Positions 2,226 to 40,517 of a stretch of DNA of 40,517 nt are shown in pieces. This DNA is from Desulfurivibrio dismutans (GTDB lineage: Bacteria > Desulfobacterota > Desulfobulbia > Desulfobulbales > Desulfurivibrionaceae). The translations under genes and the position numbers were made by a program. Location: positions 1-40,517 of the forward strand of contig NZ_JARGDQ010000013.1 in assembly GCF_029210385.1 (NCBI RefSeq), given 5' to 3'. How positions within the stretch are numbered: position 1 is the first letter of the stretch; every line of letters begins with the position of its first letter. The notes beneath the pieces were generated by a model that was not told the DNA's origin, made no database searches, and worked only from the letters and a program-made list of their open reading frames with translations.

Positions 2226-2305
2226 GGGTAGATGTGCTGGGTGGACGCACTCCGATCCCGGCCAGGATCTACTGGATGTTTGCCTCCCTTAATTACGGAG
2301 AGAGT
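2162..2305 (+). pseudogene. Fragment resembling the C-terminus of a gamma-glutamylcyclotransferase-like protein
   Basis: In the frame starting at 2162 the translation contains IDRLEGVRPDGRSMYQRVRV followed by PIPARIYWM. This matches the pattern of the AIG2/GGCT family C-terminal half (LDxLEG, then YxRxxVxV, then AxxYW). Only about 45 residues remain, with no start or catalytic region. It abuts the point where HsdR similarity ends, so it marks a deletion or insertion junction. The family call is from pattern memory only and is moderate. Confidence 0.45.
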
Positions 2306-2367
2306 CACCAGCGGCCGATGGCTACGTCCTCGAGCATGCTATTGCGGTCTTATCCGGACGAAAGCGT

Positions 2368-2396
2368 TTGACAATCTGTCCCTGCCTAAATATATC
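2368..2396 (+). promoter_or_regulatory. Sigma-70 promoter of the HTH-SNF2-Mod-Fic-Res operon
   Basis: A perfect -35 hexamer TTGACA (2368-2373), a 17-bp spacer and a -10 TATATC (2391-2396) lie about 87 bp upstream of the first operon gene. This is the best promoter-like match in the region. It sits exactly between the decayed hsdR/GGCT remnants and the intact operon. Confidence 0.6.
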
Positions 2397-2436
2397 AGAT
2401 GCAGTCTCAAGTTGGGAAACAGTGCCATGGAACCCC

Positions 2437-2459
2437 ATTACCGCCTCTGTTATGGTAAT
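2437..2459 (+). promoter_or_regulatory. Inverted repeat ATTACC-N11-GGTAAT, possible operator
   Basis: The arms ATTACC (2437-2442) and GGTAAT (2454-2459) form a perfect 6-bp inverted repeat between the promoter and the HTH gene start. The centre-to-centre distance is 17 bp, compatible with a dimeric DNA-binding protein. It could be an autoregulatory site for the adjacent HTH protein, but this is inference; a 6-bp repeat may also occur by chance. Confidence 0.3.
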
Positions 2460-2482
2460 AAGCCTATCTCCCATGAGGAGTT

Positions 2483-2698
2483 ATGGAAATGACCTTGTTG
2501 GAAGACCGCTGGTTATCAGTAGACGAGATAGGCAAGTACCTCGGTGTCAGCAGTGACACCGTTTACCGCTGGATCGACAAGCATGCGATGCCCGCCCATC
2601 GCATGGGCCGTCTTTGGAAGTTCAAGAAAGACGAAGTCGACGAGTGGGTGAAAGCTGGCGGCGCGGCTGATCGCAATAAGAAGGATTGGAAGGAATGA
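2483..2698 (+). CDS. Small excisionase-family helix-turn-helix DNA-binding protein
   Basis: A 71-residue protein made almost entirely of one winged helix-turn-helix of the excisionase/MerR-like type. WLSVDEIGKYLGVSSDTVYRW (split around residues 10-30) is the HTH, and AHRMGRLWKFKKDEVDEWVK is the wing plus last helix. These proteins bind DNA as regulators or as recombination directionality factors. No integrase is present nearby, so a regulatory or target-marking role in the operon is more likely (inference). A GAGGAG ribosome-binding site precedes the ATG at 2483; an internal ATG at 2489 is an alternative. The stop overlaps the next start as ATGA (2695-2698), showing tight translational coupling to the SNF2 helicase, so it is an integral first gene of the operon. 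Confidence 0.85.
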   Translation: MEMTLLEDRWLSVDEIGKYLGVSSDTVYRWIDKHAMPAHRMGRLWKFKKDEVDEWVKAGGAADRNKKDWKE

Positions 2699-5592
2699 TC
2701 ACCGACTACCATGCAAGCTACTACGCGCATGAATTGAGCCGGGTCGGTGGCACCGGTGTCGACCGCCTTGGCCGTGCGCTGTTCGATGCATGCGTAGACC
2801 TGAATCCTCACCAGATTGAAGCAGCTCTTTTCGCATTACGCTCACCCCTTTCAAAGGGCGTGCTGCTCGCCGATGAAGTCGGCCTTGGCAAGACCATCGA
2901 GGCAGGTCTTGTACTATGTCAATACTGGGCAGAACGCAGGCGGAACATTCTGGTCATCAGCCCTGCCTCTCTCCGCAAGCAGTGGGCGCTGGAACTCTCC
3001 GAAAAATTCAACCTGCCATCCATCGTTCTGGATGCAAAAACCTATAAAGATCAGCAAAGGCTTGGTGTTCCGAACCCGTTCAGGGACAAGCAAATCGTCG
3101 TCTGCTCCATGCACTTTGCCGCCAGCCGGGCGGAAGAACTCAAAGAGATTGCCTGGGACTTGGTGGTTATCGACGAAGCCCATAAGCTTCGCAATGCCTA
3201 CCGTGAAAGCAACCGGCTGGGTCAGCGTATCCGTTGGGCAACAGAAGATCGCAAAAAGCTGCTCCTGACGGCGACGCCGCTGCAAAACTCCCTGCTCGAA
3301 CTCTATGGCCTTTCGACCCTGATCGATGACCGGCTGTTTGGTGACTTGGCATCTTTCAGAACGCAGTACATCAACTATGGCGGTGATATTTCCGGCCTGC
3401 GGGAACGCCTGGGCGCATTCTGCTGGCGTTCGCTCCGTAGCCAGGTTATCGAATTCGTGCGCTACACCGAGCGCAAACTCATTACCCGACCGTTCAAGCC
3501 CACGGAGCAAGAGCACAAACTATATGAGGCGGTTTCCAGCTATCTCATGCGTGACGAAACCTATGCGCTCCCATCAGGGCAGAAACACCTGCTCATACTT
3601 CTTGTCCGAAAAGTTCTGGCATCATCGCCCCACGCCGTTGCCGGAACACTTGAGATCATGCGTGACCGTCTGCTGAAATTGAGGGACGAAGCCAGGCAGA
3701 ACGCAAGCGCCTTGGATCTGCTGATTTCTGGTGAGGACATTGATGACGATCTGCTCGATGAAATCCTCGAGGACGAAGAAGATGGTCTCATCGATGACGA
3801 ATCCCCAACACCTGAGATAGAACCGGAACCGCAGACTAAAAAGATTGATCTGGAAAAGCTCAATGCTGAAATTGAAGAGCTGACCGACTACATTCGCTGG
3901 GCCAGAAGTCTTGGCATCGACACAAAAACCAGAGCGCTCCTGAAGGCCTTGGACATTGGCTTCAGCGTCATGGAAGACATGGGCGCGGCCAAAAAAGTGG
4001 TCGTCTTTACCGAATCACGGCGAACTCAGAACTGGCTCAAAGACTTCCTTGAGGGGAATGGCTATGCCGGTCAGGTGCTGACGTTCAATGGCACCAACAA
4101 GGATGATGCCTCCGGTCAAATTTATAAAGAGTGGCTTGCCGCCAACAAGGAGTCAGGTCGCGCTACCGGTTCTCGTCAAGTGGATCTCAGAGCGGCAATC
4201 ATTGATCGTTTCCGTGACCAGGCAAGTGTCTTGATCGCGACAGAAGCCGGTGCCGAAGGCCTTAACCTTCAGTTCTGCTCGGCCATCGTCAATTTTGATT
4301 TGCCCTGGAATCCTCAGCGCATTGAACAGCGGATAGGCCGTTGCCACCGTTACGGCCAAAAACACGACGTGGTGGTCATCAATTTCCTCAACGAGCGCAA
4401 CGAGGCCGACCGGCGCGTCCACGAGTTGCTTGAGCATAAATTCAATCTGTTTACCGGGGTTTTCGGTGCCAGCGACGAAGTACTGGGCTCCATCGAAGCC
4501 GGGGTGGATTTTGAGCGCCGAATTCTCGAGATCTATCAAGAATGCCGGAGCGAAGAGGAAATTCAGACCGCTTTTGAAAAGCTGCGATTCGAACTCGATG
4601 AGCAGATTCAGACCAGAATGCGTGACACCCGAAAGATGCTGCTGGAGCATTTTGACGAAGACGTGCACGAGCGGCTGAAGGTCAACCTGGCTGGAACCCA
4701 AGAACGACTGGACCGGATTGGCCGTCTGTTTTGGTCGGTCACCCGCCACGCCCTGGAAACCCATGCTGTTTTTGATGATGCGGATTTCTCTTTCACCCTG
4801 AACAACAGCCCGGCTCCTCATGTCTCGACCGGGCGGTATCACCTGATCTCCAAAACCCAGGAGAATATACCCGGGGAGTATCTCTACCGGCTCAGTCATC
4901 CGTTGGGAGAGCACGTATTGAGTGAGGCTAAGGAAAGGCCTTGCCCGCCTGCCGAAGTCGTTTTTGATATTTCCGGGCACTCCACCCGCATCGCCGTGGT
5001 GGAACGTCTCAAGGGGCGGTCCGGCTGGCTGAGCCTTCAGCGACTCCACATCGAATCATTTGATTTCGAGGAGTATATGCTTTTCTCGGGAATGGACGAT
5101 ACGGACAACAACATCGACCAGGAAACCTGCGAAAAGCTGTTTAATTGCAGCGGGCGGGTCAATGGACAATTGACAATGATCAATGAACAGGTGAAGCAAC
5201 GGCTTGATGCCGATTCAAAGCGGCATGTGCAGGCGACCCTGGCCAAAAACCTGGAGGAGAACAACCGCCACTTCTCCGAAGCCCGTGACCAGCTCGACAA
5301 ATGGGCCGAGGACATGGAAATGGCGGCCCAAAAAGAATTGGACGATACCAAACGCCAGATCCGCGACCTGCAACGGCGCAGCCGCCAGGCTCCCACCATC
5401 GAGGAGCAGCACAGCCTGCAGGAAGAAATCGCCAAGCTCGAGCGGAAGAAGCGCAATTTACGCGAGCGGATCTTCGACATCGAGGACGAGATTGCTGAAA
5501 AGCGTGACCGCCTCGTGGAATCGCTCGAAAAACGTATGCAACAGAAAACAACTGTCACGCCGGTGTTCACCATCCGGTGGAGCGTGATTTAA
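2695..5592 (+). CDS. SNF2/RapA-type DEAD-like helicase with C-terminal coiled coil
   Basis: A 965-residue superfamily 2 ATPase. Motif I is LADEVGLGKTIEAGL (about residues 57-71), motif II is VVIDEAHKLRN (DEAH at about residue 160) and motif III is LLLTATPLQN. The second RecA lobe carries VVVFTESRRTQ, IATEAGAEGLNLQ (about residue 520) and RIEQRIGRCHRYGQ. This is the SNF2/RapA arrangement, in which the motor translocates along duplex DNA or remodels protein-DNA complexes. After the motor there is a roughly 300-residue unassigned region, then a strongly charged coiled coil from about residue 840 to the end. I chose the ATG at 2695, which overlaps the upstream stop as ATGA and has a GGAAGGA site, over the upstream TTG at 2686. 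It ends 17 bp before the methyltransferase. SNF2 helicases accompany methyltransferases in several defense systems such as DISARM, but DrmA/DrmB are not here. Confidence 0.88.
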   Translation: MITDYHASYYAHELSRVGGTGVDRLGRALFDACVDLNPHQIEAALFALRSPLSKGVLLADEVGLGKTIEAGLVLCQYWAERRRNILVISPASLRKQWALELSEKFNLPSIVLDAKTYKDQQRLGVPNPFRDKQIVVCSMHFAASRAEELKEIAWDLVVIDEAHKLRNAYRESNRLGQRIRWATEDRKKLLLTATPLQNSLLELYGLSTLIDDRLFGDLASFRTQYINYGGDISGLRERLGAFCWRSLRSQVIEFVRYTERKLITRPFKPTEQEHKLYEAVSSYLMRDETYALPSGQKHLLILLVRKVLASSPHAVAGTLEIMRDRLLKLRDEARQNASALDLLISGEDIDDDLLDEILEDEEDGLIDDESPTPEIEPEPQTKKIDLEKLNAEIEELTDYIRWARSLGIDTKTRALLKALDIGFSVMEDMGAAKKVVVFTESRRTQNWLKDFLEGNGYAGQVLTFNGTNKDDASGQIYKEWLAANKESGRATGSRQVDLRAAIIDRFRDQASVLIATEAGAEGLNLQFCSAIVNFDLPWNPQRIEQRIGRCHRYGQKHDVVVINFLNERNEADRRVHELLEHKFNLFTGVFGASDEVLGSIEAGVDFERRILEIYQECRSEEEIQTAFEKLRFELDEQIQTRMRDTRKMLLEHFDEDVHERLKVNLAGTQERLDRIGRLFWSVTRHALETHAVFDDADFSFTLNNSPAPHVSTGRYHLISKTQENIPGEYLYRLSHPLGEHVLSEAKERPCPPAEVVFDISGHSTRIAVVERLKGRSGWLSLQRLHIESFDFEEYMLFSGMDDTDNNIDQETCEKLFNCSGRVNGQLTMINEQVKQRLDADSKRHVQATLAKNLEENNRHFSEARDQLDKWAEDMEMAAQKELDDTKRQIRDLQRRSRQAPTIEEQHSLQEEIAKLERKKRNLRERIFDIEDEIAEKRDRLVESLEKRMQQKTTVTPVFTIRWSVI

Positions 5593-5609
5593 GGAATCAG
5601 GAGATAACA

Positions 5610-8600
5610 ATGCCATCAGCCGAACAACTTCGCAGCCGCCTTTTGAAGAAGCTTTCCGAGCTGTTCCAGCTCGACCAGCCGGATCTCGATTTCGGCTTTT
5701 ACCGCATCATGCACGCCAAGGCGCAGGAAGTTCAGGAATTCATCAGCACCGACCTGTTGAAAATCGTGGCGGATGCCTTCGGCGATGTGGACGAGGCCCG
5801 CAAGGCCGAGCTGCAGGCCGCCTACGAGAAGGCCATTCAGACCGCCAAGGATTTCGGCGCTCCCAATCCGGAAGAGACCGAGCCGGTCAAAAAGGCCAAG
5901 GCCGCGCTGGATGCAGTCAAGGATACGGCTAGCGCCGAGGCCGACGTCTATGACCACTTGTATCGCTTCTTTGAGCGCTACTACGATGACGGCGACTTCA
6001 TCTCCCGCCGCTATTATACCCGGGAAACGTCCGGCAAGGCAGCACCCTTTGCCGTGCCCTACAACGGCGAGGAAGTGAAACTGCACTGGGCCAACGCCGA
6101 CCAGTATTACATCAAGAGCGCCGAGTATTTTTCCAACTTCACTTTCGATTTGCGGCAGGCGCAAGAGATCCGCGCCCTGCGGCAGCAGAATCAGATCGGT
6201 ATCCTGCTCGGAGCAGAGGACGATTCCCCGCTCAAAGTCCACTTTCGCGTCGTCGAGGCCACCGAGGGCGAGCACGGCAACGTCAAGGCCTCCGAGGCCA
6301 ACAAACGTTTCTTCATTCTGCATGCCGAAAATCCCGTCGCCCTGACCGAAACCGGCGAGCTGGTCGTCAATTTTGAATACCGGCCCGACCCGGAAAAAAC
6401 CGGCCAGGAAAACACCTGGCGGGACAAGCGCAACACCGAGGCGGTGGAGACCATACTGGAGCGTCTCCAGGCCATGGCTGCCGCCGGTGGCGAACACGAA
6501 AAACAGATCGCGGAATATCTGCGTCTGTTCAAGGTCCCCGCTCCGACCGACAGCGACAAGAAGCGCCCAGTGCTGGCCAAGTACGTGAACCAGTACACGG
6601 CCCGCAACACCATGGACTATTTCATTCATAAGGACCTGGGCGGCTTTCTACGCCGGGAGCTGGACTTCTACATCAAGAACGAGGTCATGCGCCTTGATGA
6701 CATTGAAAACGCCGAAGCCCCGGCGGTCGAAAGCTATCTGGCCAAGATCAAGGTGCTGCGCAAGATCGCGGGCAAGCTGATCGACTTTCTGGCCCAGCTT
6801 GAGGATTTTCAGAAAAAGCTCTGGCTCAAGAAGAAGTTCATTATTGAAACCAACTACTGCATCACCCTCGACCGGGTTCCCGAGGAACTCTACGCGGAAG
6901 TGGCCGCCTGTGATGCGCAGTGTGAAGAGAGGATCAGGCTGTTCGCCATCGACGAAATCCAGGCCGATCTGCACAGCCCGGGGTTCTCGCGGCCTTTGAC
7001 GGTCGAGTTCCTCAAGGCCAACAACAAGCTGGTGCTGGATACCCGCTTTTTCGATGACAGCTTCAAGGCACGGCTGGTGGCGTCGATTGAGAACTTCGAT
7101 GAGCAGTGCGATGGCCTGCTGATTCACTCGGAGAATTTTCAGGCGTTGAAACTGATAGAGGAAAGATACCGAAAGCAGGTTCGCGCAACTTACATCGATC
7201 CACCTTACAACACCGTTCACTCCGAAATTGTTTATAAGAACCAGTACAAGCATTCGTCTTGGCTGTCTTTAATCGCCAATGTAGCAAGGATTACACCCGC
7301 ATTTTGGCAGAATACTTATTCTTTCGGATTAGCTATCGACGATTACGAGTTTGTCAATCTGGCGGCTTTATTGGATGGTTTATTCCCCACACTCGAACGC
7401 TCTGTGGTTGTAGTCAATCACCATCCTCAAGGAGCAGGCGGTCGCTTGTCGAGGACTCACGAATATTTGATTCTTTGCAGCCCGGCGGATGCTCCATCCT
7501 ATTTGGGTCAACCCAAAGATGACTATCAGGAAGAGCGAAGCTTTATGCGGAGCGGAACAGCAGAAAACAACTACCGTTCAGGCAGGTGGAAGAGTTTCTA
7601 TGCCTTGTTACTGGACCCAAGAACTAATCAGATTGTAGATGCTGAACCGCCAGTTCCTCTCGGGGAAGCATATCCTACTGAGAATACGCCCGAAGGGCAC
7701 CAGCGGATTTACCCGATCAACTCAAAAGGTGAAGAGCGTGTTTGGCGTTCTAGCCATTTGACTGGAAAGAAAAGAGCCCAAGATGGCGAACTTATCGTTT
7801 CTGACCGTGGAACGGTTTATCAAACGATAGATCACGACGGAAAAAGGGAAACGCTCTTCAGCAATTGGACAGACAGCAAATTCAATGCTGGCATCCATGG
7901 GTCAAATGTTCTTGGAGACTTGGGTCTTCGAGGAGCATTCGACTATCCAAAATCGATCTATACAGTCGAGACTGCACTTTGGGCACAAACATTTGGTGAT
8001 CACAGGGCTACCATCCTCGATTACTTTGCTGGGTCAGGAACAACGGGGCACGCAGTTCTAAATCTGAATAGAAGCGATAATGGCAAAAGAAAATACGTCT
8101 TAGTGGAAATGGGGGACTACTTTGGTACAGCCACCAAGCCGCGTGTTCAAAAAGCCATTTATTCCAATTCTTGGAGTGATGGAAAACCGACATCTAGGAC
8201 TGATGGAATTTCTAACTGCTTCAAATACGTCCGTCTGGAATCCTACGAGGACACGCTCAACAACCTGCGCCTCGACCACCACCCCCAGCGTAAAAGGGCA
8301 GTAGCTGCCAACCCGGCGCTCAAAGAAGACTACATGCTCCGCTACCTGCTGGATGTGGAGACACGGGGAAGTCAGTCGCTGCTCAATATCGACGCCTTTG
8401 CCGATCCGACCGCTTACACCCTGGAGGTCAAAAAGCCGGGGACGGACGAGTACGCCACCCGTGCGGTCGACCTGATCGAGACCTTCAACTATCTGATCGG
8501 CCTGCGCGTGCTGCACACATCCGTGCCGCAAACCTTCCAGGCGACCTTCAAGCGCATCACGGACCCGGAGCTGCCCGAAGACCAGCACACCAAGCTGGTG

Positions 8601-8933
8601 GTGGATGGCCGCATCCGCCAGGACGAAGGCGGCCCGTGGTGGTTCCGCAAAGTCGAAGGCTGGGTGCCCAAGGACGCGGCCAATCCCAACAATGGCCAGC
8701 GGGAAAAGGTTTTGGTCGTCTGGCGCAAGCTCACCGACGACATCGAGCAGGACAACCTGATGCTGGATGAATGGTTCCAGAAGAACCGCATCAGCACCCG
8801 CGATTTCGAGTTCGACACCATCTACGTCAACGGCAGCAACAATCTGCCCAACCTCGCGCTTCCTGACGAGAACTGGAAGGTCCGCCTCATCGAAGAAGAG
8901 TTCATGAAGCGCATGTGGGAGATGGAAGGATGA
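5610..8933 (+). CDS. Large beta-class N6-adenine/N4-cytosine DNA methyltransferase (type III Mod-like)
   Basis: A 1107-residue methyltransferase. Catalytic motif IV is IDPPYNT (D at about residue 530) and the SAM-binding motif I is [12 protein letters not shown] (about residue 804). The order DPPY before FxGxGTT defines the beta class, which includes type III Mod subunits. The roughly 275 residues between the motifs would hold the target-recognition region. The N-terminal 500 residues are an unusual helical and charged extension, making the protein much longer than a classical Mod (about 600-700). I chose ATG 5610 with CAGGAG upstream; it follows the SNF2 stop by 17 bp. Composition is mosaic: rows between about 7150 and 8215 are 42-53% GC against 58-65% on either side, suggesting that the catalytic and specificity core was exchanged. 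It would methylate host DNA for the operon. Confidence 0.88.
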
Positions 8934-9053
8934 GTAACCACGAACTAAGTACGAAAGAGAACCACAGATGAACATCGATGGACACGGATTAGCTTTTGCA
9001 ACTGACAAGGAAGGCTTGTCGGTTCATGCCGCACCCAGGCACGGAGGCGATTC

Positions 9054-10157
9054 ATGAAACCCTACGAACCGAATAAATTGCCACTGGAAGGGCTGGACTA
9101 TAAGCAGTTGTTTTCCCTGGTTGGCAATGCCAATGCGGAATTGGCCCGGTATGATGGGCTGCTGCAGGGAATTGTTAATCCTTCGATCATGCTGTCACCG
9201 CTGACCAATGAGGAGGCCGTGCTTTCTTCAAAAATCGAAGGAACCCAGGCTACAGTCGATGAGGTTCTGGAACAGGAAGCCGGTATCCTCAAGGAGGGTG
9301 AAAAGGCAAAAGACATTCAGGAAATCATCAATTACCGCGAAGCGTTGCGTGGTTCGCATCAATATCTTGAGGATCGCCCCATCACCCTGTCGTTCGTGCG
9401 GGAGTTACACAGGATTCTGCTCAACAGCGTGCGCGGACAAGACAAAACCCCCGGTGAATTTCGCAAGGATCAGAACTGGATCGGCAAGTACGGCTGCACC
9501 ATCGAACAGGCCAGCTTCGTTCCGCCCAATCCTTTGCAGTTACAGGATCACCTGGAAGCGTGGCAGCGCTACATGGCCAGCAATGATGTTGACTTGCTGC
9601 TGCAAACGGCGGTAGTTCATGCCCAGTTTGAGCTACTGCATCCGTTCAAGGATGGAAATGGGCGAATCGGACGAATCCTGATCCCGCTATTCCTATATCA
9701 GAAGAAGAAGCTTTCGCAGCCGATGTTCTACCTGAGTTCCTACCTGGAAAACCACCGGGAAGAATACTATGCGCGGTTGCAGAATATTTCGCGTGAAGGC
9801 GACTGGAATGGCTGGATTGCCTTCTTCCTGACGGCCATCACTGTGCAGGCGAAGCACAATAACGCCAAAGTCAAGGCAATCATGGACCTGTACGATGCGA
9901 TGAAAAGACGAATTCATGGCATCACCCACTCCCAGTACACCGTGCATCTGCTGGACGCAATTTTTGATCGTCCGATCTTCGAAACAACGGACTTCATCAG
10001 ACGCACGGGTATCCACAAACCCACCGCCATGGGATTGCTTCGTCAACTGAAAGCGGCGGATGTTTTGCGCGAACTGCGTCCCGGTAGTGGCAGGCGCGCC
10101 GCGGTTCTCTGTTTCCCGGAATTGCTGAATATTGCCGAGGGGAGGCAGATCGTATGA
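9054..10157 (+). CDS. Fic-family protein (class II autoinhibited AMPylase), intact
   Basis: A 367-residue Fic protein with the full catalytic loop HPFKDGNGRIGR (His at about residue 196) and an N-terminal inhibitory motif SSKIEGT (Glu at about residue 62). This is the class II arrangement, in which the glutamate blocks productive ATP binding until relieved. Fic enzymes usually transfer AMP to a hydroxyl of a target protein. The C-terminal 80 residues look like a winged helix (TDFIRRTGIHKPTAMGLLRQ), so it may also bind DNA. It lies 120 bp after the methyltransferase, a gap holding a 6-bp hairpin (GACAAG/CTTGTC at 9004-9020) and an AGG-rich leader. Being kept intact inside the operon suggests a role as effector or regulator, but its target is unknown. 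Confidence 0.9.
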   Translation: MKPYEPNKLPLEGLDYKQLFSLVGNANAELARYDGLLQGIVNPSIMLSPLTNEEAVLSSKIEGTQATVDEVLEQEAGILKEGEKAKDIQEIINYREALRGSHQYLEDRPITLSFVRELHRILLNSVRGQDKTPGEFRKDQNWIGKYGCTIEQASFVPPNPLQLQDHLEAWQRYMASNDVDLLLQTAVVHAQFELLHPFKDGNGRIGRILIPLFLYQKKKLSQPMFYLSSYLENHREEYYARLQNISREGDWNGWIAFFLTAITVQAKHNNAKVKAIMDLYDAMKRRIHGITHSQYTVHLLDAIFDRPIFETTDFIRRTGIHKPTAMGLLRQLKAADVLRELRPGSGRRAAVLCFPELLNIAEGRQIV

Positions 10158-10162
10158 TGGAA

Positions 10163-10274
10163 CTTGTGTATCGCCTGACCACATCTATTGGCTTTGTGTA
10201 TCGCAAGCGCTGCCTTGCAATACGCGAATCGGTTTATGGATCGCAGAATAGCCACAAACCACTTTGCGGATCGT
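10163..10274 (+). repeat. Four direct repeats (TTTRTGGATCGC-like) at 30/40/30-bp spacing
   Basis: Four 12-bp units start at 10163 (CTTGTGTATCGC), 10193 (TTTGTGTATCGC), 10233 (TTTATGGATCGC) and 10263 (TTTGCGGATCGT). The intervals are 30, 40 and 30 bp, whole multiples of about ten, so the units face the same side of the helix. The block fills the gap between the fic stop and the res start. It resembles an iteron-like operator, for example for the Fic winged helix or the HTH protein, but no binding protein is identified. An alternative is degenerate low-complexity repeat DNA. Confidence 0.5.
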
Positions 10275-10325
10275 TTCCCGGGTTTTGCCGTCCACAAAAC
10301 CTGCAAGACACGAAGGGAGGCGGCC

Positions 10326-13300
10326 ATGCCAAGGGGTAGAACCAGGGGCCGGGCCAGAGGCCCGCAGCAACACGCCTTCCGCAACAAGCTGCTGCTCAAC
10401 CAGTGGCTCATAAGCCTGTTCGGCATCGATCCGCTCGCCGAACACAAAGTAAATGGCAAGGTGGTTCGCCCCTTTCACAAGTTGGCCGAACCCATCCGTG
10501 ATCCGCGCCTGGAAGGGTTGGACAAGGATAATCTGCATTTCTTCTACCACCATCTCGGCGATAGTCCGCTCTTCAGCTATGCCGATCCAACGGCTGATTT
10601 CCCGGGCTTTCGCATCAGTCGGGATATGCTGTTGACCTATGAGCAGAACATTGTTCGCCATACCCAGGCGATCAACGAAAAGCGCCACCGCCCGATTGGG
10701 TGGAAATACTACCAATGGCTGACCCTGATCTTTGTTGAAATCTACCTGGACCGCTTTTTTGGCAATCGTGAAGGGTTGCTCGCCGATCTCAATGCATTCG
10801 CCCTGCGTTTCAACCGCCACTGGGACGATTACGCCGATGTGCCGCCTTACAACGAGGATGACCTGAACAAGCTCTGCATGCAGAACGCCACCGGCAGCGG
10901 CAAGACGCTGCTAATGCACGTCAACCTGCTGCAATACCGGCACTACGCCGCAAGACACGGGAAGGGTAAAGAACTCTCCCGGGTCATCCTGCTGACGCCC
11001 AATGAGCGTCTCTCGGAGCAACACATCACCGAGTTTCGGGAGAGCGATATTTCTGCAGGCAACTACCTGCAATCCCGTGGCGGGCTGTTCGGTCTTGCCC
11101 AAGGCCTTGAGCGGGTGGATGTGCTGGAGATTACCAAACTGGCCGATCAGGAGGGGCCGAACACCATCGCCACTCGAAGTCTTGGTGACCAGAACCTGCT
11201 TCTGGTGGACGAAGGCCATCGCGGATTGTCAGGCAACAAGGCCAAGGAAGAGGAAAACGCCTGGTTCAAGCGGCGGGGAAAACTATGTGAAAAGGGTTTT
11301 ACCTTCGAGTATTCGGCGACTTTTGAACAGGCAGTTGCTGTAGCCAAAAGTGACAAATTTGAAAACACCTACGCAAAAACGGTGATTTTTGATTATTCCT
11401 ATCGGTGGTTCTATGAGGACGGTTTCGGTAAGGATTACCAGATTCTCAATCTGCCCGAATCCTTCGAGGAGGCCCACTCCGTTTACATGACTGCTTGTCT
11501 GCTGAAATTCTATCAGCAACTCCGGATCTACGAGGAAAAGGCGAAGGATTTCGAGACGTTCAATCTGGAAAAGCCGCTATGGGTCTTTGTCGGCAGCACG
11601 GTTTCCTCCGGCAAGATGAGCAAGGATGAACAGATCGTGGCCACGGACGTGGCGCTCATCATCCAGTTTATCGCCGACTTCCTCGACAACAGCCAAGTGG
11701 CTACGCGGCGCATGCACGAAATCCTCACCGGCAAAGGCCAGGATACCGGCCTGCTGGACAAGGATGGAAATGACATCTTTGCCGGAGCCTTTACCTACCT
11801 AGCCCGGTCCATGAATGTCGGTGAAACCGTTGAAGCCCTCTACCGGGACATTCTCGCCAGGCTGTTTAACCATGCCGCAGGCGGCCATTTGTCACTGGAT
11901 CGCATCAAAGGCGAATCCGGCGAAGTGGCCTTGCGTGTGGGCACGAGCGAGACGCCCTTCGGTCTGATCAACGTCGGTGATGCCAAGAGCCTGTGCGACC
12001 ACGTGGCCGAAGTGGCAGCACAGAATGGCACACGACTGACCGTGGAAGACAGTGACTTCACGGAGGCGATGTTCGCCTCCGTGAAGGATTCCACGTCACC
12101 GGTCAATCTGCTTATCGGCTCGAAGAAATTCGTTGAAGGCTGGGACTGCTGGCGCGTCAGCACCATGGGCCTGATGCATGTCGGACGCTCGGAAGGCTCG
12201 CAGATCATTCAGCTCTTTGGGCGCGGTGTCCGCTTGAAGGGTTATGAGTGGAGCCTCAAGCGCAGCGGCCATTCCCATGCTCCGCTCCGGCCGACCTTCA
12301 TCGAGGAATTGGAAACCCTCAACGTGTTCGGCATCGAAGCCGACTTCATGGAGAAGTTCCGCGAGTTCCTCAAAGAGGAAGGCCTACCCGGCAACGAGCG
12401 CCGCAAGATCATTACCATCCCGCTGAATGTCACCTATGACTTCGGCAAGAAGCTTAAAATCCTCCGCCCTAAGCGGAAGGCCTCTGACGGCAAGGAATAC
12501 GACTTCAAGAAAGATGCAGCGGTTCCCACTGTCGGGGATATCCCGGACTACATGACGCACAACACGGTAGTCGCCGACTGGTACCCGCGCATTCAGGCCA
12601 TGCAGTCACGCGGTACATCCCTGGCGACCCAGAAGGACAAGGTATCGTTACGTGAACAGCATTTGGCTCTGCTGGATTATGACACGCTCTTTTTCGAGCT
12701 GGAGCGGTTCAAGCGCGAACGGAGCTGGTACAACTTCAATATCACCAAGGATGGCATTCAACGTCTGCTGGGGGACCCGAACTGGTACACCCTCTACCTG
12801 CCCGAAACCCGCCTGAATCCGGCAACCTTTGATGGCGTGCTCTTGCTCCAGCAGGTGGCGTCAGAGCTTCTGAAGCGGTACTGCGATCACTACTACAACT
12901 ATCGCAAACGGGAATACATCGAACCGCGCCTGGAGCTACGTGACCTGACGCCGGATGATGACAACATCCCGCAGGAGGAATTCTACCAGCTCATCGTGGA
13001 TGGCGATGAAGAACAGGTCATTCAGGGAATTCAGCAGATCAAGAAGGATCTCGAACAGAAGAAGGATGATCTGCTGAAGGTTGGCGATCTGAACGCCTGC
13101 AATTTCGGCAAGCACCTGTTCCAGCCGCTTTTTCACGTTCGGCGCGGAGGGAAAATCACCATCCTGCCTGTCGCCCTCAACGAGAGCGAATATCAGTTTG
13201 TCACCGATCTGAAGACCTGGGGCGACGGCCACAAAGCCGCTCTGGAAAAGGAAGGAATGGAACTCTTCCTGCTCAGGAACATGAGCCGGGGCAAAGGCGT

Positions 13301-13640
13301 GGGATTCTTCGAGGCGGGCAACTTCCACCCCGATTTCATTCTGTGGATACTGATTGGCGAGAAACAGTACGTCACCTTCATCGAGCCGCACGGCCTTTTG
13401 CACGAAGGCCCCGCCAGCGAGAAGGTTCTGTTCCACAAGCGGATCAAGGATGTCGAGCAACGTTTGAAGGACCCAACCGTGATCCTCAACAGCTTCATCC
13501 TTTCCTGGACGCGATACCCACAACTGAAATGGGATAACACACAGGACGAGCTCGAGGATATGCACGTGCTGTTCATGACCAATGACCGTGACAGATACAT
13601 CGACAAGCTGTTTGCCCGGCTGAGGGGGATGGTGAAATGA
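10326..13640 (+). CDS. Type III Res-like DEAD-box helicase/restriction endonuclease subunit
   Basis: A 1104-residue superfamily 2 helicase of the type III restriction (ResIII) kind. Motif I is NATGSGKTLLMHVN (about residue 190), motif II is LLVDEGHRGLSG (DEGH at about residue 295), motif III is FEYSATFE and motif VI is QLFGRGVRLKGYE (about residue 630). Near the C-terminus NFHPDFILWI and TFIEPHGL (about residues 1000-1022) form a PD-(D/E)XK-like core in which the usual lysine position is His. I chose ATG 10326 behind AAGGGAGG; the longer frame from 10188 runs through the repeat block and has no ribosome-binding site. The stop overlaps the PHP gene as ATGA (13637-13640). With the upstream Mod-like methyltransferase it forms the core of a type III-like restriction-modification unit. 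Confidence 0.87.
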   Translation: MPRGRTRGRARGPQQHAFRNKLLLNQWLISLFGIDPLAEHKVNGKVVRPFHKLAEPIRDPRLEGLDKDNLHFFYHHLGDSPLFSYADPTADFPGFRISRDMLLTYEQNIVRHTQAINEKRHRPIGWKYYQWLTLIFVEIYLDRFFGNREGLLADLNAFALRFNRHWDDYADVPPYNEDDLNKLCMQNATGSGKTLLMHVNLLQYRHYAARHGKGKELSRVILLTPNERLSEQHITEFRESDISAGNYLQSRGGLFGLAQGLERVDVLEITKLADQEGPNTIATRSLGDQNLLLVDEGHRGLSGNKAKEEENAWFKRRGKLCEKGFTFEYSATFEQAVAVAKSDKFENTYAKTVIFDYSYRWFYEDGFGKDYQILNLPESFEEAHSVYMTACLLKFYQQLRIYEEKAKDFETFNLEKPLWVFVGSTVSSGKMSKDEQIVATDVALIIQFIADFLDNSQVATRRMHEILTGKGQDTGLLDKDGNDIFAGAFTYLARSMNVGETVEALYRDILARLFNHAAGGHLSLDRIKGESGEVALRVGTSETPFGLINVGDAKSLCDHVAEVAAQNGTRLTVEDSDFTEAMFASVKDSTSPVNLLIGSKKFVEGWDCWRVSTMGLMHVGRSEGSQIIQLFGRGVRLKGYEWSLKRSGHSHAPLRPTFIEELETLNVFGIEADFMEKFREFLKEEGLPGNERRKIITIPLNVTYDFGKKLKILRPKRKASDGKEYDFKKDAAVPTVGDIPDYMTHNTVVADWYPRIQAMQSRGTSLATQKDKVSLREQHLALLDYDTLFFELERFKRERSWYNFNITKDGIQRLLGDPNWYTLYLPETRLNPATFDGVLLLQQVASELLKRYCDHYYNYRKREYIEPRLELRDLTPDDDNIPQEEFYQLIVDGDEEQVIQGIQQIKKDLEQKKDDLLKVGDLNACNFGKHLFQPLFHVRRGGKITILPVALNESEYQFVTDLKTWGDGHKAALEKEGMELFLLRNMSRGKGVGFFEAGNFHPDFILWILIGEKQYVTFIEPHGLLHEGPASEKVLFHKRIKDVEQRLKDPTVILNSFILSWTRYPQLKWDNTQDELEDMHVLFMTNDRDRYIDKLFARLRGMVK

Positions 13641-14176
13641 GTTCAACAGCGTACATAGGAAGCAAATGGTGGAAGCTTGATTTCCACACACATACTCCCA
13701 AGTCGGACGATTACGGCCGGGGTGATGAATCCTTCAAGAGTATCGAACTGGAGGAATGGCTCCAGAAAGCTATGGAATCCGGTCTCGACTGTGTGGTGAT
13801 AACCGATCACAACGCGGGCGGCTGGATTGATGTGTTGAAGGCAAAGAACAAGGAGCTTCGAGACCGTGACACAAGGCCCGGGTGGTACAGGGATCTGACC
13901 ATTTTCCCGGGGTTTGAGATCACAGTTGCCAACAGCAGCAGCCGGGTTCATCTGCTCGCGATTTTTGACCCGAGTTGCGACAGTCAAAAGGTGACCGGCG
14001 TTCTGGGGGCGTGCGGAATTACATCTGGCTACGGTGATCCGAATAAATCCACGTCAACCGGCTTTGTGGATACCGTGAAACATATCATCGAAGCAGGTGG
14101 AATTGCTCTACCGGCCCATATCGATGGTAAACAGGGGTTGCTTGAAGGTATTGTCTCATTATCGCCTGAGCTCGAA
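13637..14176 (+). pseudogene. PHP-domain N-terminus of a TrlF-like PHP-ATPase, truncated
   Basis: The first 175 or so residues are a PHP phosphoesterase domain: KWWKLDFHTHTPKSDD with the metal-binding HTHT at residues 17-20, then VVITDHNAGG and an AHID motif near residue 160. This start is typical of the large TrlF-type proteins, in which a PHP domain precedes an SMC/AAA ATPase; such PHP-ATPases occur in defense loci. Here coding similarity ends near 14165. From 14177 the DNA is a DUF4357 3' fragment in a different frame, and the open frame continues only as nonsense to 14404. The whole ATPase part is missing. The start overlaps the Res stop as ATGA, so it was originally the last gene of the operon. 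Loss of the ATPase may disable this part of the system. Confidence 0.75.
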
Positions 14177-14393
14177 CTACAGCAAACTGCTCGCCGAGCT
14201 GGTAACCACCGGGGTACTCTCATCCCAAGATGGCCGCTGCGTCTTCACGGAAAACTACGCCTTCAAAAGCCCCAGTGCAGCCGCCGCCGTAGTCAACGGC
14301 CGCCCGGCCAACGGCACCATCGAATGGAAACTCCCGGCCACCAACAAAACCTACAAAGAATGGGAAGCCGAAAACCTGAACCAGGAAGGGTAG
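14177..14393 (+). repeat. DUF4357 fragment A (3' half of the gene)
   Basis: A 215-bp stretch (14177-14391) differs at only three positions from copy B at 15545-15759. In frame it encodes the C-terminal DUF4357 core (FTENYAFKSPSAAAAVVNGR, then ANGTIEW) and ends in its natural TAG. There is no 5' half: the preceding DNA belongs to the truncated PHP gene in another frame. It is followed after 66 bp by the AlbA_2 remnant. Confidence 0.85.
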
Positions 14394-14459
14394 TGACGCA
14401 CTAAAAACCTTCACGCCTTTGTGTGAGGAATTCATAGCTTTACGGGAGAAGCAGAAACC

Positions 14460-37162: not shown

Positions 37163-37981
37163 ATGAACTGGAAAAGACTTTTTTCCCGCACGCCGTCTTT
37201 GGACCCCGCCGAGGCACGTAAGTTTATGGATCAACGTTCGGCCGCTGAGTACCAGTTGTTGGATGTTCGCCAGCCCAAGGAGTACGAGGCGGAGCACCTG
37301 CCGGGGGCGCGCCTGATTCCCATCAAGGAACTGGCCCAGCGTCAGGCCGAGCTGGACCCGGCCCGGCCGGTGCTGGTTTATTGCGCCGTGGGAGGGCGCA
37401 GCCGGGCGGCGGCCCAGTATTTGAACGGTCAAGGCTTCAAGGAGGTCTACAATGTGGCCGGCGGCATCAAGGCCTGGGAAGGAGGCAAGGCCGCCGGACC
37501 CGTCGAGGCGGGCCTGGAACTGCTGCCCGCCGAGGCCGAATATGACGAAGCCGCCGCTTTGGCCTACGCCATGGAGGACGGCCTGCAGCGTTTTTACCTT
37601 AAACTGGCGGCCGACAGCGGCGATGCCGCCCTGCAAAAAACCTACCAGCGCCTGGCGGGCCTGGAAGACGGCCACAAGGCCCGGCTGGCCGCTGAGTACC
37701 GCAAGAAAACCGGCCAAAACCTGGAGCCGGCCGGGCAGGATGAACTGCTGGAAGGCGGCCGGCCCCCGACATCGTTTACCTCCGCCACCCCGGCCCAAGC
37801 CCTGGATCAGGCCATGGGGCTTGAATTCCAGGCCCAGGATCTTTACCTGCGCCTGGCCGCACAAAGCGAAGTGGCCGCCAGCCGAGAGTTTTTTCTGGCC
37901 ATGGCGGCGGAAGAAAAAGAGCATCTGGCCCTGTTGGCCCGTGAGTTGGAGCAGGCCGGGGAAGGGGACAATGCCGCATAA
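37163..37981 (+). CDS. Rhodanese-ferritin-like (rubrerythrin-type) fusion protein
   Basis: A 272-residue two-domain protein. Residues 10-108 are a rhodanese: LLDVRQPKEYEAEHLPGA, then the active-site loop VYCAVGGRSRAAA (Cys at about residue 75), closing NVAGGIKAWEGG. This domain carries sulfane sulfur on Cys. Residues about 120-268 are a four-helix ferritin-like domain with AMEDGLQRFYLKLA, LEDGHKARLA, GLEFQAQDLYLRLA and AAEEKEHLALLA, giving the E/E-x-x-H ligand pattern of a di-iron site. A GAGGTAG site precedes the ATG. The stop overlaps the FAD oxidoreductase start by 11 bp, so the two are cotranscribed. The fusion suggests a role in sulfur or selenium transfer with peroxide or oxygen protection (inference). 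Confidence 0.85.
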   Translation: MNWKRLFSRTPSLDPAEARKFMDQRSAAEYQLLDVRQPKEYEAEHLPGARLIPIKELAQRQAELDPARPVLVYCAVGGRSRAAAQYLNGQGFKEVYNVAGGIKAWEGGKAAGPVEAGLELLPAEAEYDEAAALAYAMEDGLQRFYLKLAADSGDAALQKTYQRLAGLEDGHKARLAAEYRKKTGQNLEPAGQDELLEGGRPPTSFTSATPAQALDQAMGLEFQAQDLYLRLAAQSEVAASREFFLAMAAEEKEHLALLARELEQAGEGDNAA

Positions 37982-39110
37982 AACAGGTAAAAAACTGGTG
38001 CTGGTGGGCGGCGGGCATGCCCACATGCAAACCCTGGCCGCCATCGGCAACTTCGTTCGCCGGGGGCATTCGGTAACCGTGGTGGCGCCCTCGCCCTACC
38101 ATTATTATTCGGGAATGGGGCCGGGGATGCTGGGGGGTACCTACCAGCCGGAGGATATTCGCTTCGCTACCCAGCAGCAGGTGGAAAAGCTGGGCGGCAC
38201 CTTCGTGCTGGGCCGGGTGACCCGCATTGACCCGGTGGCGGGCGAGGTGGAGTTGGCCGACGGCGGCCGCATCCCATATGATGTGGTTTCCTGCAACGCC
38301 GGCAGCCAGGTGCCGACCAGTTTGCCCATTACCGCCGCCGAGGGCGAAGGGGTGCCGATTTTTACCGTTAAGCCCATCGAGCGGCTGTGGGAAGCTCGCC
38401 AACAGTTGCTGGCCCTGGCCATCGAAGGCCCCCCCAAAGTGGCGGTGATCGGCGGCGGGCCTTCGGCGGTGGAAATCGCCGGCAACACCTGGCGCTTGCT
38501 GCGGGAGGCCGGCCACCAGCGCCCCTGCATCCGAATCTTTGCTGGTCGTAAACTGATGGGCCGGGCTTCCGAAGAGGTGCGCCGGCGGGTCAACGCTTCT
38601 TTGGCGCGGCGGCATATCGAGGTGGTGGAGCCGGGCCGGGTGCAGGAAATACACGACGGCAGGGTGGTGATAGAGGGCAGGAACAACAACTGCAAGGCGG
38701 ATTTTATCTTTCTTGCCCAAGGGATCAGGCCCGCGCCCATCTTTGCCGACTCCGGCCTGCCGGTGGGGCCCGACGGCGGCCTGCTGGTCAACGAATATCT
38801 GCACTGCCCGGGGAAGTCGCAGATATTCGGCGGTGGCGACTGTATTTACTTTGAACCCCAACCGTTGGACAAGGTCGGGGTTTATGCGGTGCGGCAAAAC
38901 CCGGTGCTGCGCCACAACCTGCTGGCGGCCCTGGAAGGTGGCGAGTTGCGGACGTTTGCCCCGGGCGGCGACTACCTGCTGATTTACAACCTGGGTGATG
39001 ACACCGGGGTGCTCCAGAAACGCTGGCTGATTTTCGGCGGCCGTTTGGCTTTCCGTATCAAAGACTATATCGACCGCCGGTTCATGCGTCGTTTTCAACA
39101 GCACGCCTGA
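37971..39110 (+). CDS. FAD-dependent pyridine-nucleotide oxidoreductase (NDH-2/SelD-associated type)
   Basis: A 379-residue flavoprotein. The FAD-binding start KLVLVGGGHAHMQTL (residues about 8-22) carries GGGHAH, a variant typical of oxidoreductases fused or linked to selenide-water dikinase (SelD) and of some NDH-2-like quinone reductases. The NAD(P)H Rossmann motif is VAVIGGGPSAVEIAG, and the second FAD motif is IFGGGDCIYF. There are no redox-active Cys pairs, so it is not a disulfide reductase. The start at ATG 37971 overlaps the rhodanese gene. The context of a rhodanese upstream and YeeE genes downstream suggests electron transfer in sulfur or selenium metabolism, but the substrate is unknown. 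The gene ends 153 bp before the next gene. Confidence 0.85.
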   Translation: MPHKTGKKLVLVGGGHAHMQTLAAIGNFVRRGHSVTVVAPSPYHYYSGMGPGMLGGTYQPEDIRFATQQQVEKLGGTFVLGRVTRIDPVAGEVELADGGRIPYDVVSCNAGSQVPTSLPITAAEGEGVPIFTVKPIERLWEARQQLLALAIEGPPKVAVIGGGPSAVEIAGNTWRLLREAGHQRPCIRIFAGRKLMGRASEEVRRRVNASLARRHIEVVEPGRVQEIHDGRVVIEGRNNNCKADFIFLAQGIRPAPIFADSGLPVGPDGGLLVNEYLHCPGKSQIFGGGDCIYFEPQPLDKVGVYAVRQNPVLRHNLLAALEGGELRTFAPGGDYLLIYNLGDDTGVLQKRWLIFGGRLAFRIKDYIDRRFMRRFQQHA

Positions 39111-39127
39111 TAAAAAAACGTTTTTCC

Positions 39128-39167
39128 TTGACAATCGGGAGCTAGAATAACGACAATTGATTGTTAT
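39128..39167 (+). promoter_or_regulatory. Promoter and operator-like inverted repeat of the yeeE pair
   Basis: TTGACA (39128-39133), an 18-bp spacer and GACAAT (39152-39157) could form a promoter. An inverted repeat ATAAC-N11-GTTAT (39147-39151 and 39163-39167) with a central CAATTG covers the -10. This is the layout expected for a repressor-controlled operon; no regulator gene is in the window. An A7-CG-T5 hairpin just upstream may end the previous transcript. Confidence 0.4.
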
Positions 39168-39263
39168 CAGCTGAACACTGTCGTGTTGGTGATGATATGG
39201 GGTTTAGTGTACGCAGTTCTTTAATTATTGCATTTAAAATTTAAAGAGCAAGGAGGAAGAATC

Positions 39264-39779
39264 ATGAAACAGAATGGTGCCTGGAGTCCCTATCTGGCCG
39301 GCGGTTTGGCCGGCCTGCTGGGGGTGCTGTCGGTGCTGCTGGCCGGTCAGTTTTTCGGTGCGTCCACCTCGTTTGTGCGAACCGCCGGGATGATCGAGCA
39401 GTTGTTGGGTCCGGAACGGGTCGCAGAAATGGATTACTTTGTCAAGGTGGTCCCCGGGATCGACTGGCAGTGGATGTTTGTTTTCGGCATTTTCCTGGGT
39501 TCTTTGGTCGCCGCCCTGGCTTCCGGCACTTTTCGCCTGCAGACGGTACCGGATATGTGGCAGCGGCGCTTTGGTCACACCCCGGTAAAACGGGCAGTGG
39601 TGGCTTTTGCCGGCGGGGTGGTGGCCATGTTCGGTGCTCGGCTGGCCGACGGCTGACCCAGCGGTCACGGGTTGAGCGGTTCGCTTCAACTAGCGGTCAG
39701 TGGGTTTGTGGCATTAATTTGTTTCTTTGTGGCCGGGGTAATCATGGCCCGCATCGTCTATGGAGGTGGCAAATCATGA
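39264..39779 (+). CDS. YeeE/YedE-type membrane protein with in-frame TGA, candidate selenoprotein
   Basis: Read through the TGA at 39654-39656 this is a 171-residue membrane protein. Three or four helices lie at about residues 8-28, 70-92, 112-130 and 145-165. The stretch around the TGA reads GARLADG-(TGA)-PSGHGLSG. YeeE/YedE transporters have GAR(L/I)AGGC(T/P)SGHG(I/L)SG here, with a Cys that is functionally essential in the thiosulfate transporter TsuA, so the TGA replaces the conserved Cys. The frame after it stays open, continues with good membrane sequence (GFVALICFFVAGVIMARIVY), and ends in an ATGA overlap with the next yeeE gene (39776-39779). A hairpin with GU in its loop lies 15-34 bases past the TGA. 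Together these indicate selenocysteine rather than a stop. AGGAGGA precedes ATG 39264. An ordinary annotation would truncate this at 39656. Confidence 0.85.
39671..39690 (+). promoter_or_regulatory. Candidate bacterial SECIS hairpin
   Basis: GTTGA-GCG (39671-39678) pairs with CGC-(T)-TCAAC (39682-39690), eight pairs with one bulged U on the 3' side, and a GUU loop (39679-39681). The loop begins 22 nt after the TGA, inside the range for bacterial SECIS elements, and contains the GU needed for SelB contact in E. coli fdhF. The bulge is on the opposite side from the fdhF bulged U, which is a point of caution. Confidence 0.6.
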
Positions 39780-40303
39780 GTTCGTTACTTTATGGTCTGA
39801 TCACCGGCTTTTTGTTCGGCTTTCTGCTCCAGAAGGCCCGGGTAATCCGTTATGACAAGCAGTTGGGAGCCCTGCGGCTACTGGACATGACCATCGTCAA
39901 GTTCATGCTCACCAGCGTCATGGTGGGCATGGTTGGGGTTTACCTGCTGCAGGACCTGGGCCTGGCCGAGTTATCGATCAAGAGTATGGTGGCCGGCCCG
40001 GTGATTATCGGCGGCCTGCTCTTCGGTCTAGGCTGGGGGCTGTTGGGCTACTGCCCCGGCACCTCCGCCGGCGCCCTGGGCGAGGGTCGGGTGGACGCCT
40101 TCTGGGGAATCCTGGGCATGGTCACCGGGGCCGCCCTGTTTGCCGAGGCCTACCCCTGGCTGCTGCGCACCGTTTACACCTGGGGCGATCTCGGCAAGCT
40201 GACGGTGCCGCAGGTCTTGGGCGTCAACCACTGGCTGGTGATCCCCGTCTTCATCATCGGCGTGGTTTTCTTGCTGCGCTGGCTGGAGAAAAGGGGGCTG
40301 TAA
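39776..40303 (+). CDS. YeeE/YedE (DUF6691-like) membrane protein, second half-transporter
   Basis: A 175-residue integral membrane protein with four to five predicted helices (about residues 4-20, 42-60, 72-94, 105-122 and 150-168). The motif GLGWGLLGYCPGTSAGALGE (about residues 83-102) is the second conserved Cys segment of the YeeE/YedE fold, matching half-length DUF6691-type proteins. Full-length YeeE has two such Cys-bearing halves in one chain; here they are two genes joined by an ATGA overlap, so the products very likely assemble into one thiosulfate- or other sulfur-species-conducting unit. This copy keeps Cys (TGC) where the partner has TGA. A hairpin lies 22 bp past the stop. Confidence 0.88.
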   Translation: MSSLLYGLITGFLFGFLLQKARVIRYDKQLGALRLLDMTIVKFMLTSVMVGMVGVYLLQDLGLAELSIKSMVAGPVIIGGLLFGLGWGLLGYCPGTSAGALGEGRVDAFWGILGMVTGAALFAEAYPWLLRTVYTWGDLGKLTVPQVLGVNHWLVIPVFIIGVVFLLRWLEKRGL

Positions 40304-40324
40304 GGTGCAGGGCAAACTGACTGA

Positions 40325-40359
40325 CTGGAAGTTCCGGGCTTGGGCCAGGGTGCTTCCAG
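40325..40359. terminator. Inverted repeat between convergent genes, possible terminator
   Basis: CTGGAAG (40325-40331) and CTTCCAG (40353-40359) form a perfect 7-bp stem with a GC-rich 21-nt loop that can pair internally. It lies between the yeeE stop and the convergent minus-strand gene. No clear U-tract follows. Confidence 0.4.
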
Positions 40360-40364
40360 CCAGC

Positions 40365-40517
40365 TTAACTTGCTGATTTCATGTTTTCGCCGTCTGGCTT
40401 GCGAGCTTTTTTAATAAATTTGTTAAAATTGCTGTTGACGTGCATTACCTCTTCGGCTATGTTGCCCGTCTCCTGCAGCACGGGAGGGAGCGAGGCCGTC
40501 AGGGCCCGGTTCCGAAG
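40365..40517 (-). CDS. C-terminal 50 residues of an unidentified protein (runs off the window)
   Basis: The minus strand is open from the window edge to a TAA at 40365-40367. The encoded C-terminus contains LPPVLQETGNIAEEVMHVN, then NFNKFIKKARKPDGENMKSA. It is helical and lysine-rich at the end and not obviously membrane-bound. The in-frame length and convergent position support a real gene, but I cannot assign a family from this piece. Confidence 0.5.
   Translation of the reverse strand, partial: LRNRALTASLPPVLQETGNIAEEVMHVNSNFNKFIKKARKPDGENMKSAS

Follow-up and report, generated by a model that had tools for sequence, protein, structure and literature searches.

Among the closest described relatives of the gene pair reported here are the split transporters PmpA/PmpB and YedE1/YedE2, together with the TsuA/YeeE protein of Spirochaeta thermophila (6LEO, 8K1R). 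According to the available text of PMC11582611, Cys91 and Cys293 are indispensable in TsuA, and PmpA and PmpB are split halves which match Cys293 and Cys91, respectively, and have been proposed to form a heterodimer. The accessible portion of PMC10812762 describes the split YedE1E2 as an importer of zero-valent sulfur, the activity of which is abolished by mutation of either cysteine.

In the accessible parts of PMC9312934 (2022) and PMC13188914 (2026), YeeE/YedE (PF04143, WP_012471001.1) is listed as a selenoprotein family, for which the latter source gives the motif GUxSG; the main texts of PMC2398784 and PMC5029168, both cited for the family, do not name YeeE/YedE. It was left undecided by the first-pass annotation of this DNA whether selenocysteine (Sec)-containing members had already been catalogued. 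Since such a family is listed, the locus described below is a further well-supported example and not a new kind. A text search for literature linking PmpA with selenocysteine gave nothing relevant, judging by its listing, and a literature search outside which most subscription papers fell found neither a PmpA-like character nor the Cys293 position described for the Sec half.

The window analysed here is a whole contig of 40517 bases from an assembly of 2.84 Mb rated 99.99% complete. As in PmpA/PmpB and YedE1/YedE2, two half-length genes are found, one with the Cys293-type and the other with the Cys91-type residue, but the Cys293-type residue is here predicted to be Sec, the halves comprise 171 and 175 aa as compared with about 130 in the accessible descriptions, and no sulfur-metabolism gene was recognised among the neighbours scanned, the contig ending 214 bases past the pair. 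With TsuA/YeeE of S. thermophila the pair shares residues corresponding to Cys293 (U131) and Cys91 (the partner cysteine); it differs in consisting of two genes and in lacking Cys22, and in 31 genomes the TGA form has no TusA-type gene nearby. The likeness to the WP_012471001.1 family, compared by the listed family and motif alone as they appear in the available text, consists in the same Pfam entry, the motif, which reads GUPSG here, and a single Sec.

Gene pair and in-frame TGA

The features of the locus are collected in Table 1. The reading frame of the first gene contains a lone internal TGA (codon 131) and terminates in another TGA at 39777-39779. Under translation table 11 the ORF ends at 39656 and the protein is cut at residue 130, the truncation that had been foreseen for a standard gene caller. 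When read through, the product matches PF04143 (Sulf_transp) with an E-value of 4.8e-21 and 76.1 bits (cut-off 27) over residues 5-159 and profile positions 175-309, and residues 130-134 form the GUPSG motif, so that PF04143 and GUxSG are both present. The first-pass annotation had placed the TGA at the conserved cysteine of a YeeE motif followed by typical YeeE sequence. The position is right, the column being TGA, TGC or TGT in 108 of 108 genes, and so is the sequence beyond it, as judged by the read-through match and the coding pattern; the spelling of the motif, however, is GARLADG-U-PSGHG and not GARLAGG.

Table 1. Features of the split YeeE-type locus in the window.
Feature	Position	Strand	Basis
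Sigma-70-like promoter match, TTGACA-18-GACAAT; consensus match alone	39128..39157	+	Consensus
Shine-Dalgarno-like AAGGAGG ahead of ATG 39264	39250..39256	+	Sequence
Predicted Sec-containing PmpA-like half of YeeE/YedE (PF04143) transporter, 171 aa, U131	39264..39779	+	PF04143 match; TGA/TGC/TGT column
In-frame TGA, most likely selenocysteine; aligned to S. thermophila TsuA Cys293	39654..39656	+	Alignments to 6lep, 6leo, 8j4c; codons of relatives
Bacterial SECIS-type apical hairpin, loop GUU 39679-39681, 22 nt past TGA	39672..39689	+	SECIS rule, relatives
PmpB-like partner covering the N-terminal half of PF04143, overlapping by ATGA; GYCPGT Cys corresponding to TsuA Cys91; no Cys at Cys22 position	39776..40303	+	Profile, alignment

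The table 11 stop at the internal TGA would be in keeping with a real stop, that is, with a decaying gene or a protein of 130 residues only. Such a reading is very improbable, since the TGA occupies the same codon in 60 of the 107 relatives, the other 47 having Cys codons there, and the coding pattern is kept 3' of it: between the window and 27 of the 29 TGA loci of the first set of relatives (see below), codon positions 1 and 2 differ by 14% and position 3 by 50%. The loss of downstream conservation in homologues, which had been named as an argument against read-through, is thus not seen, and a hairpin accompanies the TGA genes. The TGA at 39654 is very likely read as selenocysteine.

The expected ATGA overlap with a second YeeE-type gene was found, the partner starting with the ATG at 39776 and covering profile positions 19-153 of PF04143. 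Judging by the profile and alignment matches, the first gene is a PmpA-like, C-terminal-type half, and the overlapping downstream gene is a PmpB-like half. In phmmer alignments against PDB chains, U131 falls on Cys293 and the cysteine of the partner's GYCPGT on Cys91 of S. thermophila TsuA, the aligned spans being residues 66-166 of the Sec half with TsuA 238-328 and residues 5-166 of the partner with TsuA 4-176. An AlphaFold2 model built from 18 sequences (pLDDT 53) was too poor for use.

The partner was sought in 67 loci (38 of the first and 29 of the second set of relatives, a few being duplicates) and lies directly 3' of the Sec or Cys half in 66 of them; in the remaining one, L033, the contig ends at this place. 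At the Cys91 position of the partner a cysteine is encoded in all 66 readable loci (TGC in 40, TGT in 26) and no Sec was seen; I, L or V stands at the Cys22 position, both in the window and in these 66 loci.

Codons at the Sec/Cys column in relatives

Two sets of relatives were compared. Scanning of genomes with the read-through protein gave a first set of 39 loci, of which L056 failed to align across the column and 38 were usable. For the second set, 296 genomes belonging to the phylum of the window were scanned, and 75 contained a match at E 1e-20 or better; among the 83 matches one was the window's own, and 69 of the 82 others were read, the 13 left out including two listed with one TGA and eleven with none. 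The alternation of Cys and Sec that was to be looked for at this column is evident in both: TGA is found in 29 and Cys codons in 9 of the 38 loci, and TGA in 31 and Cys codons in 38 of the 69 genes. Taken together, the window and its 107 relatives have 61 TGA, 28 TGC and 19 TGT codons (n=108), that is, 61 TGA versus 47 Cys. For the comparisons of the hairpin below, four entries with an identical 66-base stretch (L032, L067, L079, L082), at least some of which represent the same gene present in both sets, were dropped, leaving 58 TGA and 46 Cys genes.

The occurrence of Cys as the alternative at the column might also be expected if TGA were read as tryptophan or cysteine through a reassigned code without the Sec machinery. 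Yet TGA also ends this very gene at its 3' terminus, the Sec machinery is present in the genome (see below) and tryptophan occupies the column in none of the 108 genes, which makes a reassigned code hardly credible and leaves Sec decoding as the preferred reading.

In a maximum-likelihood tree of 104 proteins, calculated with the column masked, a minimum of 10 Sec/Cys changes is required. Well-supported branches force 4 of these; the tree as a whole is weak, with stars on 19 of its 101 inner branches, and the direction of the changes was not inferred. Within the genus of the window, the two genomes matching in the second set (G188, G210) have the Cys form. Four genomes (G005, G135, G249, G289) encode a distinct Cys paralogue with a GCTSGHG motif in addition to the TGA form, and in G005 and G135 a few kb of a single contig separate the two. 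The L033 contig carries the label Syntrophomonadaceae; its terminal gene shares 83% identity with that of the window, and the contig is possibly mis-binned or the result of recent transfer.

SECIS-type hairpin

A hairpin with a GU loop had been noticed 22 nt downstream of the TGA and is indeed found there, the loop being GUU (Table 1). The bare 18 bases of the hairpin fold weakly (-3.8 kcal/mol, 5 bp), and the 54 bases 3' of the TGA fold with -18.0. According to the available text of PMC13188914, a bacterial SECIS element has a loop of 3-9 nt, an upper stem of at least 4 bp, a G in the first two loop positions, a distance of 16-37 nt from the UGA and an MFE of -7.5 or lower. When this rule was applied to the 30 bases starting at the tenth base after the codon, with synonymous codon redraws providing the expectation, it was satisfied by 54 of the 58 distinct TGA genes, including that of the window (5.04 expected), versus 7 of the 46 Cys genes (2.32 expected). 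The hairpin thus goes with the TGA genes, and the SECIS check proposed in the first-pass annotation speaks for its reading. The four remaining TGA genes (L060, L083, L085, L108) have a 5-bp hairpin with a G-initial loop; it is the energy limit that they miss, the 30-nt piece giving -5.1 to -5.7. A first definition, in which the place of the bulge was fixed, had been satisfied by 30 of the 58 TGA genes and 2 of the 46 Cys genes; the switch to the published rule was made after this result was known, and both definitions favour the TGA genes.

In all 58 TGA genes a G opens the loop, at a distance of 21 or 22 nt from the TGA. Two architectures are distinguished: in the first, to which the window belongs, the loop has 3 nt and the stem is bulged; in the second, the loop has 6 nt (GGUCUG or GGUUCG, for example). 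The outer pair, contributed by the codons of Leu6 and Gln11, covaries at silent sites in the TGA genes (TTG-CAA in 28, CTG-CAG in 22, TTG-CAG in 1 and CTG-CAA in 0, together 51 of 58), whereas the corresponding counts in the Cys genes are 1, 7, 9 and 1 (18 of 46), the genes outside these counts having other codons at Leu6/Gln11. Fisher tests gave 1.5e-13 for the TGA genes versus 1.0 for the Cys genes, values which ignore kinship and overstate independence because the genes are related. In addition, the Gly8 codon is GGT in 56 of the 58 TGA genes versus 6 of the 46 Cys genes.

Two of the seven rule-satisfying Cys genes, L041 and L063, retain the Sec-type hairpin itself and may represent recent Sec-to-Cys changes with relic SECIS elements. 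A scan of 39100-40517 against Rfam at E up to 5 gave two matches, both under their gathering scores.

Selenocysteine machinery

The lack of selB or selC had been named in advance as an argument against Sec decoding; all four genes, selA, selB, selC and selD, are present in the window genome. The tRNA-Sec search gave 73.2 bits (gathering score 47), and ARAGORN also calls this tRNA, with the anticodon tca. The latter call matters because the tRNA-Sec search cross-matches: all 14 control genomes give matches, 5 of them above the cut-off, and the second match of the window genome itself lies exactly at 47. SelA was identified with 562.5 bits, SelB by its wing domain (6.9e-20) inside a 635-aa ORF, and SelD with 382.6 bits. 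The gene of the latter (L127, G000:C12:203584-204513) contains one in-frame TGA, and this SelD is probably a selenoprotein itself. Selenoprotein forms of SelD are known elsewhere.

SelA was detected in 71 of the 75 second-set genomes having the protein; the base rate in the whole phylum sample is 275 of 296, so the co-occurrence, being consistent but not discriminating, was dropped as evidence. Among the 31 genomes in which a TGA form was read (that of the window being one), a SelA match is missing from G066 and G262, both of which have SelB over the cut-off. These two genomes belong to family f32 and are rated 98-99% complete; SelA may have been lost in an assembly gap, or the enzyme may have diverged or been replaced.

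Gene neighbourhood

When neighbouring genes were clustered, the partner proved to be the only widely common one, the next most common occurring in at most 4 of the 39 loci (window included). Close neighbours on the same strand numbered 28 in the loci, and 20 of them (16 loci) were scanned. Pfam matches, mostly to unrelated families, were obtained for 18; those that may bear on sulfur or redox chemistry were confined to a CitMHS/Na_sulph_symp transporter (L021, L024) and a peroxiredoxin (L052). The neighbours give no clear hint, and the derivation of a substrate from them was dropped.

No TusA gene (PF01206) was found beside the TGA form in the 31 genomes, short contigs limiting the reach of this search. 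PF01206 is present in 28 of the 31, but on the same contig as the TGA form only in G034, at a distance of 87 kb. The window genome also possesses a full-length, Cys-type YeeE gene (C23:312895-313893), which is followed 70 bases on by a TusA gene (C23:313963). The absence of a TusA gene by the TGA form, as opposed to its presence next to the genome's own full-length YeeE, agrees better with a PmpAB-type system than with one of the TsuAB type. Rhodanese-like frames, so labelled by reading their translation, lie upstream of the full-length YeeE, and the region G000:C23:312895-314178 is taken as a TsuAB-like system in the window genome.

Upstream of the split pair, the window encodes an FAD-type oxidoreductase (37452-39110), which resembles a domain fused to SelD in some bacteria and matches TIGR03169 (Nterm_to_SelD) with 245 bits (cut-off 310). 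At the other end of the window, 588-14404 is occupied by a defence-type island encoding a DrmD-like SNF2 helicase (678.6 bits), a type III methyltransferase (828.1), a type III restriction enzyme (562.5), SoFic (385.8) and a Ppl-like protein (106.9 bits).

Proposed function

It can be stated with high confidence that the TGA at 39654 is decoded as Sec within a split YeeE-type pair. The description of the gene product as a thiosulfate-type transporter is correct only in part: the gene belongs to a split pair of the PmpA/PmpB type, for which thiosulfate is one of the candidate substrates. By analogy with the published homologues, the two halves would form a heterodimer. The pair probably imports a sulfur species, with polysulfide/zero-valent sulfur or thiosulfate as the likeliest substrate.

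It is conceivable, though rather unlikely, that the selenoprotein pair moves selenium species, by uptake or export, instead of sulfur species. In the available text of PMC5322559, YedE is tied to selenium metabolism by comparative genomics. The YedE/FdhT selenium-related membrane proteins (TIGR04112, NF033796) belong to the same superfamily as the pair and give weak matches with it, and the upstream oxidoreductase carries the likeness to the SelD-fused domain mentioned above. Still, selen_YedE_FdhT scores 33.9 and 35.4 bits with the two halves (cut-off 350) and seleno_YedE 26.6 bits (partner only, cut-off 200), values far under the curated cut-offs. The halves score higher with the TsuA model NF052577 (47.2 and 43.1 bits), although these values, too, are far under its cut-off of 400, as are 36.8 and 27.9 bits versus the other TsuA cut-off of 645. 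Moreover, among the 38 loci the upstream gene is common to L020 only, and no selenium-metabolism gene was recognised among the 20 of 28 close same-strand neighbours scanned.

For import of sulfur, the preferred reading, a mechanism may be outlined. By alignment Sec is at the place of TsuA Cys293, where it would have a relay or first-contact role: a reduced sulfur species would meet the Sec of the PmpA-like half first and would then be handed to the Cys91-like cysteine of the partner, the selenol presumably allowing faster or more reversible capture. A more speculative and rather doubtful extension is that Sec accepts the sulfane sulfur of polysulfide or thiosulfate, forming a selenenyl sulfide, and passes the sulfur on to the partner cysteine, in a covalent chalcogen exchange tuned by the repeated Sec/Cys swaps. 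If this were true, import would be a chalcogen exchange, in contrast to the relay by hydrogen bonds that has been put forward for TsuA.

In the available text of PMC13188914, the transporter families listed as selenoproteins amount to no more than a handful. What the present comparison of sequences adds to the entry for YeeE/YedE is that the Sec half is PmpA-like, that Sec falls on Cys293 and that the partner keeps the Cys91-type cysteine and is devoid of Cys22. By tying the GUxSG motif to Cys293 of a solved transporter and to a split partner, the list entry becomes testable with respect to the role of a selenol at the entry cysteine, for which the natural Sec/Cys pairs, including the two Cys genes with the hairpin, provide ready material.
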